Assembly: GCA_902583645.1 (NCBI GenBank)
Contig: CACHWQ010000003.1
Coordinates: 1 to 64,000 of the forward strand
Origin: an uncultured Pelagibacteraceae bacterium
GTDB lineage: Bacteria > Pseudomonadota > Alphaproteobacteria > Pelagibacterales > Pelagibacteraceae
Reading direction: 5' to 3'
DNA: 64,000 nt
Position numbers and translations under genes: made by a program. The notes under the pieces are model-generated. The model saw nothing but the letters and a program-made list of their open reading frames with translations. It had not been told where the DNA came from and made no database searches. Every line of letters begins with the position of its first letter. Position 1 is the stretch's first letter. Below, piece after piece: positions 9,054 through 33,849 of the stretch.

Positions 9054-9172
9054 ATAGGTTGTATTTTGAGTCTGGAACTGAATCAAAAGTGAATCAAAAC
9101 GTGAACATCCAAACTACATTTTGTTGGATTGTGGATAACTTAGACAAGGGATAGATTGCTTGGATATAAATT

Positions 9173-29311: not shown

Positions 29312-29344
29312 AAGGCTATTATTTTACTAAATTTATGCTATAAG

Positions 29345-29506
29345 AACCTTACGGGAGAGACCACATTAGTGTGGCGCCGAAGGAGCAACCACCCCGGAAA
29401 CTCTCAGGCAAAAGGACCGTAAATATTAACTCTGGAAAGAGAAAAATTCTCGCCGAAGGAGCAAATCTCTCAGGCACATAGACAGAGGGGGCAAAGAGTT
29501 AATATT
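29345..29506 (+). promoter_or_regulatory. tandem glycine riboswitch of the gcv operon
   Basis: Two glycine aptamers lie in series. The first (about 29350-29420) has GGGAGAGACC, the core GCGCCGAAGGAGCAACC and the closing CTCTCAGGCAAAAGGACCGT. The second (about 29431-29490) repeats CTCGCCGAAGGAGCAAAT, CTCTCAGGCACATAGACAGAGG. These are the conserved core strings of the gcvT class. AATATTAACTCT (29422-29433) and AGAGTTAATATT (29495-29506) are perfectly complementary and would close the second aptamer two bases before the gcvT ATG. Glycine presumably turns gcv expression up, as usual for this class. Confidence 0.95.
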
Positions 29507-29508
29507 TT

Positions 29509-30618
29509 ATGAAAAAAACACCTCTGTACAGTCTTCATCAAAAACATGGTGCAAAATTTGTACAATTTGCTGGTTATGAAATGCCTATTCAATATGAAAC
29601 TGGCATTGTAAAAGAACATATAACAACCAGAAATAATTCAGGAATATTTGATGTATCCCACATGGGTCAGTTATTTTTAAAAGGTGGAGATGAATTAACA
29701 AATGATTTACAAAAAATATTCCCAATTGATTTAGAAAAAATTTCAATAAATCAAAGTAAATATTCTTTTTTAATGAAAGAAAACGGTGGAATATATGATG
29801 ATCTTATAATTACGAAATTAAAAGATGGGTACATGATAATATTAAATGCAGCATGCAAAGATTCAGATCTTAATATTTTAAAAAAGAAGATTGGTGAAAA
29901 ATATCAAATTGATTTATCAGATAATTTATCTTTAATAGCAATACAGGGGCCTAAAGCAAAAGATGTTTTAGAGTCAATTGTACCCGGCGTTATTAAACTT
30001 AAATTTATGAATGGTAACCAATTTAAGTACAAAGAATTAGACATCTATATAACTAGATCTGGATATACTGGTGAAGATGGTTTCGAAATTTCGATTAATA
30101 ATAAAATTGTAGAAAGTTTTGTGGAAAAACTTATTAAAAAAGGTTCTACAATGATTGGCTTAGGAGCTAGAGACACTTTAAGGCTAGAGGCTGGACTTTG
30201 TTTATATGGTCATGATTTAGATGAGAATACTAGTCCAATTGAGGCAAATCTAAAATGGGCAATTTCAAAAAGCAAAATCAATGGAAAGTTTCCAGGTTCA
30301 GAATTTATTAAGAAACAATATAACGAAGGTGTCTCAAAACTTAGAGTTGGAATAAAACCTGAAACAAAAGTGATAGCAAGAGAGTCTACGAAAATATTTG
30401 ATGAAAAAGATAATGAGATTGGAAAAGTAACGAGTGGAACTTTTGGACCAAGCGTTAACGGTCCTATTGCTATGGGATATATAAGTAACGATTTTTCAAA
30501 AACAAATACAAAAATCTTTTTAGAAGTAAGAGGAAAAAGGGTGCCAGCAAGTATTTGTGAAATGCCATTTTATAAAAAAAACTATGTAAGAGGAGGGGAA
30601 GATAATGTCAGAAATTAA
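29509..30618 (+). CDS. gcvT: glycine cleavage system T protein (aminomethyltransferase)
   Basis: GcvT releases ammonia from the aminomethyl group held on lipoyl-GcvH and passes the carbon to tetrahydrofolate, giving 5,10-methylene-THF. The 369 residues begin with [20 protein letters not shown] and contain the [11 protein letters not shown] motif (about 44-54) and the folate-binding [13 protein letters not shown] region (about 184-196). [20 protein letters not shown] (about 222-241) and the closing [17 protein letters not shown] follow. It is the first gene after the glycine riboswitch and overlaps gcvH by 14 bases. Confidence 0.98.
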
Positions 30619-30985
30619 ATTTTCAAAAGAACATGAATGGATAACAGTTGATGGAGATGTAGCAACTATTGGTATAACTAAACATGCAACAGAGCTATTA
30701 GGAGATATTGTTTTTGCTGAATTGCCAGAAAAAGGCTCTAGTGTAAATAAGGATGCTACTGCAGGGGTAGTCGAGTCGACTAAAGCTGCTAGTGATGTTT
30801 ATACACCTATTTCTGGTGAAGTTGTCGATACAAATCAATCAATCGTAGATGATCCATCTAAAATTAATTCTGATCCTGAAGGGGATGGATGGTTTTTTAA
30901 ACTTAAAATCAAAGATCAAGCAGAAATGAATACTTTAATGAATAGAGATGAATATGATAAATTTGCAAAGGAGAATGCTAGCTAA
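30605..30985 (+). CDS. gcvH: glycine cleavage system H protein
   Basis: This is the lipoyl-bearing shuttle of the glycine cleavage system. It has 126 residues, and the lipoylated lysine is K60 in [31 protein letters not shown] lies at the start and [14 protein letters not shown] at about 99-112, as in other GcvH proteins. The ATG at 30605 is preceded by GGAGGGG within the gcvT coding end. It shares one base with the start of gcvP (TAATG), keeping the three subunits in fixed order. Confidence 0.97.
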
Positions 30986-33849
30986 TGTTACATAATTCTG
31001 AAAAAGATTTTATTAAAAGACATATTGGACCTTCCAGAAAAGATGAAAAAGATATGTTAGGACAACTTGGTTATCAAAATATTAACGAATTAATTACTCA
31101 AACTGTCCCAGAAAAAATATTATTTAAAGGAGAATTAAATATTGGTGAACCTAATTCTGAATATGAAGCACTTAGAAAATTAAAAGCCATATCTAGAAAA
31201 AATCAAATTTACTCAAATTTTATTGGTATGGGTTATTATGGAACATATACTCCAAATGTTATCATAAGAAACATATTAGAAAATCCTGGTTGGTACACCT
31301 CTTACACTCCTTATCAACCTGAGGTCGCTCAAGGAAGATTGGAAATGTTGCTAAACTTTCAACAAATGATAATTGACTTTACTGGAATGGATATTGCAAA
31401 TGCATCTTTGTTAGATGAAGGGACAGCTGCCGCAGAAGCTATGGGCCTCAGCCATAGACTTAATAAAAAAGATAGTGATCTTGTTTTTATTTCTAAAGAT
31501 TGTCACCCTCAAACCATAGAGGTAGTAAAAACAAGAGCAGAACCTTTGGGTCTTAAAGTTTTAATTGGAGATGATGAAAAACTAAATAATATAAAGAATG
31601 ATATTGTATGTGGAATTCTTCAATATCCTGGAACTTTGGGAGATATAAAAGATCCAAGTGAAAATATTAGTAAAATTAGAAAAAAAAACGGAAAAGCTAT
31701 ACTTGCTTGTGATTTATTATCCTTGGCAAAATTAAAGACACCAGCAGAATTAGGCGCAGATATTGCTATAGGAAGTTCACAAAGATTTGGAATTCCTTTA
31801 GGTTATGGAGGTCCACATGCAGCATTTTTTGCGACTAAAGATGAATTTAAGAGATCCATGCCTGGAAGAATTATTGGAGTTTCTGTAGATAGACATGGAA
31901 ATAAAGCTTATAGACTTGCATTACAAACTAGAGAGCAGCATATAAGAAGAGATAAGGCTACTAGTAATATTTGTACTGCTCAAGCTCTACTTGCAATTGT
32001 TTCAGCAGCATATGCAATTTATCATGGGCCCAAGGGGATTAGGACGATATCGGAAAGAGTTTCTCAACTTGCCAAAAATTTTGCCGATAAACTGAAACAG
32101 TCAGGTTATGAACTTTATTCCGATTATTTCTTTGATACTGTAACAGTGTTAACAAAAGATAAAACTGAACAAATATTTCAAAATGCATTATCTCAAAAAG
32201 TGAATATCAGAAAAGTAAATTCTGAAATGTTAGCAGTATCTTTTGACGAAAAGAAAAATGTATACAGAGCAAATCAACTTTTAAAAATATTTAATTGTGC
32301 CGAAGCTATAAAAGAAAATCCTACGGAAAGTTTACCTAATCTTCCAAAAAATTTACTTAGAAATTCTAATTATTTAGAACACAAAGTATTCAATAGTTAT
32401 CACTCAGAAACAGAAATGATCAGGTATTTAAAAAGACTTGAGGATAAGGATATAGCCCTTAATCGAACAATGATTGCGTTGGGTTCTTGTACAATGAAAC
32501 TAAATGCTGTAGCAGAAATGATACCTATTAGTTGGAGAGAATTTTCAGAACCGCATCCTTTCGCTCCAATAGAGCAAATGGAAGGTTTTAGAACTTTATT
32601 CACTGATTTGAAAAATTGGTTGAGATCAGTAACTGGATTTTCTGGAGTTTCTTTGCAACCAAATGCAGGTGCCCAAGGAGAATATGCCGGTCTTATGGTG
32701 ATTAGAAAATATCATATGGAGAGAGGTGAAAAAAATAGAAATGTATGCTTAATTCCTAGTTCAGCACATGGTACAAATCCTGCAAGTGCTCAAATGGCAG
32801 GAATGAAAGTTGTTGTCGTTAATTGTGATAAAGATGGAAATGTCGACTATGAAGATCTTAAAAAGAAAGCTGAACAGAATTCAGAAAATCTTGGTGCTTT
32901 AATGGTCACTTATCCGTCAACTCATGGAGTTTTTGAGGAAAGAATATCTGACATATGTGAATTAATCCATAAGCATGGAGGACAAGTTTATATGGACGGC
33001 GCAAATCTTAACGCTTTAGTTGGTATTGCTAAACCTGGTAACTTTGGACCTGATGTTTGTCACATAAATTTACATAAAACATTCTGTATTCCGCATGGTG
33101 GCGGTGGTCCAGGCATGGGACCAATAGCTTGTAAAAGACATTTGGAAATATATTTGCCAACACATCCAGTAATAAAAGACTGTGGTCCAGCTACAGGTAT
33201 TGGAGCGATATCTGCAGCCCCATGGGGAAGTTCAAGTATTTTATCAATTTCATGGATGTATATAAAAATGATGGGTTCAGAAGGTCTTAAACTCGCAACA
33301 CAAATAGCAATTTTAAACGCTAATTATATAGCCTACAAATTAAAGGGCCACTATCCAATATTATATAAAGGTGCCAATGGAAATGTAGCTCACGAGTGTA
33401 TTATTGATATCAGATCTATAAAAAATGACACAGGAATAACTGAGGAAGATATAGCAAAGAGATTAATAGATTTTGGTTTTCATGCCCCAACAATGTCATG
33501 GCCAGTACCAGGAACAATGATGATAGAACCAACTGAAAGTGAAAGTTTAAATGAAATTAATAGATTTTGTGACACCCTAATTAAAATAAAAAAAGAAATT
33601 GATAAAATAAAAAATGGGGAGTTTGATAAGATTGATAACCCCATTAAAAATGCTCCACATACCGATCTAGAATTAGCATCGAATGAATGGAAACATAAGT
33701 ATTCTAGAGAAGATGCAGCATATCCATCACAATTTTTAAAATCTAATAAGTTTTGGCCACCAGTTTCCAGAGTCGATAATGTATATGGTGACAAAAATCT
33801 TTTTTGTACTTGTCCAAGTATGGATGAATTCAAAGAAGATGCAGCTTAA
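30985..33849 (+). CDS. gcvP: glycine dehydrogenase (decarboxylating), full-length P protein
   Basis: This PLP enzyme decarboxylates glycine and loads the aminomethyl group on lipoyl-GcvH. It has 954 residues with both halves (P1-like 1-430, P2-like 450-954) on one chain, the common proteobacterial form. The PLP lysine is K698 in INLHKTFCIPHGGGGPG. The N-terminal GMGYYGTYTPNVI (about 79-91) and SLLDEGTAAAEAM (about 139-151) are present. It is the last gene of the riboswitch-controlled operon. There is no adjacent lpd or serine hydroxymethyltransferase gene. Confidence 0.98.
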   Translation: MLHNSEKDFIKRHIGPSRKDEKDMLGQLGYQNINELITQTVPEKILFKGELNIGEPNSEYEALRKLKAISRKNQIYSNFIGMGYYGTYTPNVIIRNILENPGWYTSYTPYQPEVAQGRLEMLLNFQQMIIDFTGMDIANASLLDEGTAAAEAMGLSHRLNKKDSDLVFISKDCHPQTIEVVKTRAEPLGLKVLIGDDEKLNNIKNDIVCGILQYPGTLGDIKDPSENISKIRKKNGKAILACDLLSLAKLKTPAELGADIAIGSSQRFGIPLGYGGPHAAFFATKDEFKRSMPGRIIGVSVDRHGNKAYRLALQTREQHIRRDKATSNICTAQALLAIVSAAYAIYHGPKGIRTISERVSQLAKNFADKLKQSGYELYSDYFFDTVTVLTKDKTEQIFQNALSQKVNIRKVNSEMLAVSFDEKKNVYRANQLLKIFNCAEAIKENPTESLPNLPKNLLRNSNYLEHKVFNSYHSETEMIRYLKRLEDKDIALNRTMIALGSCTMKLNAVAEMIPISWREFSEPHPFAPIEQMEGFRTLFTDLKNWLRSVTGFSGVSLQPNAGAQGEYAGLMVIRKYHMERGEKNRNVCLIPSSAHGTNPASAQMAGMKVVVVNCDKDGNVDYEDLKKKAEQNSENLGALMVTYPSTHGVFEERISDICELIHKHGGQVYMDGANLNALVGIAKPGNFGPDVCHINLHKTFCIPHGGGGPGMGPIACKRHLEIYLPTHPVIKDCGPATGIGAISAAPWGSSSILSISWMYIKMMGSEGLKLATQIAILNANYIAYKLKGHYPILYKGANGNVAHECIIDIRSIKNDTGITEEDIAKRLIDFGFHAPTMSWPVPGTMMIEPTESESLNEINRFCDTLIKIKKEIDKIKNGEFDKIDNPIKNAPHTDLELASNEWKHKYSREDAAYPSQFLKSNKFWPPVSRVDNVYGDKNLFCTCPSMDEFKEDAA

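Follow-up and report, generated by a model that had tools for sequence, protein, structure and literature searches.

The window, that is the whole stretch of 64,000 nucleotides analysed here from an uncultured Pelagibacteraceae bacterium, carries on its forward strand gcvT (29509-30618), which encodes the 369-residue aminomethyltransferase of the glycine cleavage system (NCBIfam NF010093, 478.6 bits for a cut-off of 459). It is followed by gcvH (30605-30985), which overlaps both its neighbours, and by gcvP (30985-33849), both assigned from NCBIfam models and open reading frames. The nearest relatives of this GcvT belong to Pelagibacteraceae and share at most 96% identity with it, which places the window in SAR11. 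Two matches to the glycine riboswitch model RF00504 precede gcvT on the same strand, aptamer 1 at 29342-29429 (71.7 bits) and aptamer 2 at 29422-29495 (52.4 bits), the second overlapping the last 8 bases of the first. A scan of the whole window at gathering level gave aptamer 1 alone, and aptamer 2 came from a separate RF00504 search, where it lies above the cut-off of 32 bits and bears out the second aptamer that the original prediction had read from the letters. By aptamer model and by gcvT/gcvH/gcvP context the locus is thus a glycine riboswitch of RF00504, predicted to bind glycine. Membership in the glycine-GGAnGA family RF03166 was rejected, the score of 73.5 bits being below the curated cut-off of 110. 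Just 5' of aptamer 1, positions 29336-29343 (TGCTATAA) resemble an extended -10 element, which reads TATGYTATAA in several close relatives; this type of pattern occurs 5 times in the window for 12.6 expected and is therefore not enriched.

The P1 stem of aptamer 1 pairs UUACGG (29349-29354) with CCGUAA (29417-29422). The seven-base linker AUAUUAA (29423-29429) leads to aptamer 2, whose canonical P1, placed by the family alignment, pairs CUCUG (29430-29434) with CAGAG (29483-29487) and ends 21 bases before the gcvT ATG. Across this region runs a second, longer pairing. Read from the sequence, AATATTAACTCT (29422-29433) and AGAGTTAATATT (29495-29506) are perfect complements over 12 pairs, exactly as first described, and only TT (29507-29508) separates the 3' arm from the ATG at 29509. 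An additional pair between A29421 and T29507 even brings this long helix to 13 perfect pairs. Its 5' arm (29421-29433) is made of the last two bases of aptamer-1 P1, the whole linker and the CUCU of aptamer-2 P1, whereas its 3' arm (29495-29507) contains AGAG (29495-29498), a candidate Shine-Dalgarno sequence by resemblance; the 16S 3' end, sought for comparison with its anti-Shine-Dalgarno, was not found in this genome or in five relatives. Since the window is AT-rich and, counting imperfect matches, holds 76 inverted pairs that are 12 bases or longer and lie at most 110 bases apart, the case for the long helix is made by its position and conservation and not by its length. A helix of at least 13 pairs whose end lies no more than 5 bases from the ATG arose in 0 of 5000 dinucleotide-preserving shuffles of the 169-base leader (maximum 10), which rules out a chance origin.

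Glycine riboswitches are known in SAR11, as the original prediction had stated. They have been listed upstream of gcvT, where they are tandem, and of glcB in 'Candidatus Pelagibacter ubique' (Meyer et al. 2009, PMC2704228), and in marine metagenomes, mostly from Pelagibacter, glycine riboswitches precede the same two genes (PMC2211319). The title of Tripp 2009 calls the SAR11 switch glycine-activated. The P. ubique gcvT riboswitch agrees with the present one in gene, tandem aptamers and bacterial group, but the available part of PMC2704228 gives no expression platform, where we draw the long helix. Nor is a SAR11 platform described in the parts available of PMC6944388, PMC9481103, PMC12060979, PMC7357161, PMC3160333 and PMC2258182, and no description of the SAR11 long helix was found in the literature covered, to which Tripp et al. 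2009 and Torgerson et al. 2020 do not belong.

To compare relatives, leaders were collected from the window and 163 further loci (L003-L196 without L052-L082) by motif patterns including TCTGG and ACAG. This gave 156 leaders, eight loci yielding none (L045, L050, L102, L131, L132, L133, L135 and L136). Three of these (L133, L135, L136) were brought back by a relaxed rule, L130 was removed for an N and duplicates were merged, leaving 107 distinct leaders, 95 of gcvT (alignment A1) and 12 of glcB (alignment A2); for L113-L172 the downstream gene was assigned from its first residues alone.

The long helix is not peculiar to this genome: at least 9 of the 12 pairs compared are present in each of the 95 distinct SAR11 gcvT leaders, and all 12 in 75 of them. 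Standard pairs fill 97.7% of 1139 cells, against 88.5% after shuffling and 37-47% in slid versions. The arms vary together, as in CATATTAACTCT/AGAGTTAATATG (25 leaders), TGTAATAACTCT/AGGGTTATTACA (18) and CATAATAACTCT/AGAGTTATTATG (8). Cells changed on both sides number 102, where letter shuffles average 35.6 and slides by 1-3 columns give 5-30, and the covariation score reaches 0.296 (0.130 in shuffles, 0.036-0.071 slid). The covariation of the helix in relatives, proposed with the original prediction as its check, is thus observed. Two-sided changes affect six of the 12 pairs, located without exception in the outer half of the helix, towards the linker. This count is a less clear-cut measure, since 9 of 500 shuffles and one of the slid versions (+3) equal it. 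Because shuffles ignore relatedness, such changes were also counted by branch on one FastTree tree built without the helix columns, giving 9 for the long helix and 0-2 for slid versions; pair-breaking changes (21 for the real helix, 12-23 slid) were counted differently and are not comparable. A consensus fold by RNAalifold, supplied with no structure, recovered 10 of the 12 pairs.

In 67 of the 95 gcvT leaders the 3' arm terminates in ATG itself, and each of these 67 ATGs opens a frame that is 100 codons or longer or else runs to the end of the available stretch (the shortest 37 codons). The group of the window (5 of the 95 leaders) differs in that the arm ends in ATT in place of ATG, the gcvT start being shifted two bases downstream (29504-29511). 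As for aptamer-2 P1, 4 or 5 of its 5 pairs are kept in 94 of the 95 leaders, its outermost pair being standard in just 43. It hardly varies, so that pair counts speak neither for nor against it, and its near-invariance is partly due to selection, since leaders were found by motif.

The two pairings meet at one place. The long helix takes the CUCU (29430-29433) that aptamer 2 needs for its own P1, and both cannot form there. Computed without ligand, tertiary docking or P5, the fold of the window favours the long helix, with pair probabilities of 0.91-0.93 at its centre and about 0.001 for P1. Ensemble energies are -47.66 kcal/mol when folding is free, -47.12 with the long helix forced and -42.88 with P1 forced. 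The long helix is likewise preferred over P1 in 92 of the 95 A1 leaders, by 5.8 kcal/mol on average; the exceptions, favouring forced P1, are L118, L129 and L135, the energy of L118 being probably an artefact of an insertion that shifts the register of the helix. Once P1 is forced in the gcvT leaders, the mean probability that the AUG is unpaired increases from 0.16 to 0.35, with a rise in 84 of 94 leaders, and the corresponding means for positions -15 to +3 are 0.22 before and 0.44 after, with a rise in 90 of 94. The AUG used was the earliest one lying 10 or more bases past P1, an assignment that could be mistaken for some leaders. Sequence, covariation and computed folding agree in placing the start region in one of two mutually exclusive folds that hides it, the exclusion lying at the CUCU alone. 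The predicted opening fits the expected direction but may be partial, since the AUG opens just to 0.35 and P1 can coexist in the window with the outer eight pairs of the long helix at -41.58 kcal/mol, about 1.3 above P1 alone.

A further contact could favour closure of P1. The P3 loop of aptamer 1 contains a C-run (29392-29395) able to pair with a G-run that directly follows aptamer-2 P1 (29488-29491). This pairing is not a new contact, having been published as the P5 pseudoknot, which PMC13104608, crediting Torgerson et al., reports in the part available as frequent in ON and absent in OFF tandem glycine riboswitches. Among 79 distinct loop/tail combinations from gcvT and glcB, the longest Watson-Crick helix averages 4.59, compared with 4.06 on reshuffling of loops and tails, and none of 1000 reshuffles was as high. 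Partners include CTACCCTAG with ATAGGGT and, in changed form, CTGCTCAGG with ATGAGCA. By the reshuffling test the contact, taken as 29391-29396 with 29487-29492, covaries in SAR11. Column counts on A1 are weaker (77.9% paired compared with 74.9%), and a shift of one column even yields more two-sided cells (36 against 20). Comparison of the leaders thus supports the presence in SAR11 of the P5 of tandem ON switches, which, given its reported absence from OFF versions, favours an ON switch here.

We consider it likely that this tandem riboswitch turns on translation of gcvT, and with it gcvHP, in response to glycine by exchanging the long helix for P1. Without glycine, the linker and the P1 5' strand (29421-29433) would pair with 29495-29507, and this OFF helix would bury the Shine-Dalgarno-like AGAG together with what follows it as far as the AUG (the AUG itself in 67 of the 95 leaders), preventing ribosome loading. 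With glycine bound, aptamer 2 would close its own P1 (29430-29434 with 29483-29487), aided by docking onto aptamer 1 and by P5. P1 would then withdraw the CUCU from the long helix, leaving at most the outer A-U pairs, and expose the start region. We infer all three of glycine as the driver of this exchange, translation as its readout and ON as its direction. Induction of the gcv operon by glycine is metabolically sensible. One limit of the exchange reading is that the covarying pairs of the long helix all lie outside P1. The original prediction had seen little room for a separate expression platform; on the exchange reading the long helix would itself be that platform.

The same exchange could act mainly on the transcript, through Rho-dependent termination, decay of untranslated mRNA or a role of the long helix itself in transcription. 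In the window the stretch TTTT (29505-29508) does follow the arm, but a search for terminator-like hairpins with a T-run between 29250 and 29600 returned none, and in 67 of the 95 leaders the arm ends in ATG without any T-run. We therefore regard a mainly transcriptional action as unlikely and reject an intrinsic terminator as the platform; an internal terminator, singled out at the start as the observation that would speak against translational control, is not seen in that interval.

The layout first proposed, in which the long helix closes aptamer 2, implies the opposite switch: glycine would stabilise it as an extended closing stem, hide the start and turn gcvT off. The helix does enclose aptamer 2 and is the dominant pairing in the fold computed without ligand, but this very dominance leaves little for glycine to add. 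Moreover, it clashes with the canonical CUCUG/CAGAG P1, whose CUCU it reuses, and in the computed fold it stretches the junction between P3 and P1 from 7 bases (29476-29482) to 19 unpaired ones (29476-29494), which rules out the helix as the P1 of aptamer 2. With the shared CUCU and the stretched junction, glycine should oppose the long helix and not tighten it, and the reported absence of P5 from OFF versions also argues against this arrangement, which we hold to be improbable. A long helix serving as a conserved constitutive brake or stability element, uncoupled from glycine, would suit the position of its covarying pairs and the small cost at which P1 and the outer eight pairs coexist, but is very improbable given that the inner end of the arm is the CUCU of P1 and that its partner stays complementary (columns 108-112 standard in 89 to 95 of the 95 leaders).

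Translational exchange on glycine binding has a close parallel. The gcvT leader of Neisseria gonorrhoeae is described in PMC13104608, as far as available, as a translational tandem ON switch in which bases of aptamer 2 are paired to the start region when the switch is OFF. As in SAR11, P5 is possible and the pairing lies just before the gcvT start; P0 and the kink-turn are apparently absent there, and may be so in SAR11. The aptamer-2 bases engaged are however those of P3a, P3 and P1 in N. gonorrhoeae, whereas in SAR11 they are the P1 5' strand, together with the inter-aptamer linker. In most SAR11 leaders, unlike in N. gonorrhoeae, the ATG itself lies inside the helix, and the platform is supported by covariation where that of N. 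gonorrhoeae is supported by mutations.

A more distant comparison is offered by 28 gcvT leaders from alphaproteobacteria of Sphingomonadales type (L055-L082). All 28 carry the tandem-type CUCUG, ACAGA and GGGGG motifs, as in SAR11, with GGGGG directly after ACAGA as P1 and P5 would want. Their spacing from P1 to the GcvT match is 84-145 bases and the longest complement to the linker/P1 arm 4-7 bases, which points to another kind of platform. Within the set of leaders compared, then, P1 occurs in both SAR11 and the Sphingomonadales type, whereas the long helix is confined to SAR11.

As to the upstream side, SAR11 glycine-riboswitch transcripts are reported in PMC5069720, as far as available, to start at the first base of P1 or at most 15 bases before it, so that a P0 helix would have little leader to form in. 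The long helix moreover takes up the seven-base linker, and A1 shows no conservation in its leader columns 1-13, which bears on P0 and the kink-turn only indirectly. We tentatively suggest, as a possibility with less than even chances, that in SAR11 the linker has merged with the expression platform, the strand that helps to form P0 and the kink-turn in other tandems having become an anti-start strand that covers the Shine-Dalgarno-like region and mostly the AUG too. If so, aptamer folding and release of the start codon would compete for the same few bases, in a very compact switch with the start codon inside the switching helix.

The riboswitch class upstream of SAR11 gcvT was already reported, and the present one is otherwise of a known kind. 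The analysis here corrects the reading of the helix, from a closing stem to the OFF arm of the platform, and offers a testable mechanism, backed by covariation, for the control of SAR11 glycine cleavage genes by glycine. It could serve as a minimal model for translational control by a tandem aptamer.

The proposed mechanism is confined to gcvT and is not extended to glcB. In A2, with its 12 distinct leaders from relatives, L106 precedes a gene for malate synthase G, and the other genes were identified as glcB from their first residues. Inspection by eye, with no pair count, reveals a similar but shorter arrangement over the ATG in ten leaders from the genus of the window (commonest form GCATAACAC with GTGCTATGC, one mismatch), and it is not clearly visible in L142 and L172. 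Forcing P1 in the 12 glcB leaders did not open the AUG (0.22 to 0.21). In contrast to P. ubique, no glycine riboswitch is seen before glcB in the bases read from this genome, which is 82% complete and whose RF00504 matches are the two gcvT aptamers only. Its glcB (L197, G000:C1:5070-6485) is 59% identical to that of L106. At the level of the order, RF00504 matches in 80 of 147 genomes and in 6 of 10 genera; among the genomes listed, six from a second family have none. Elsewhere in the window, the SAR11_0636 sRNA is found at 9057-9146 (RF01827, 96.9 bits for a cut-off of 67).
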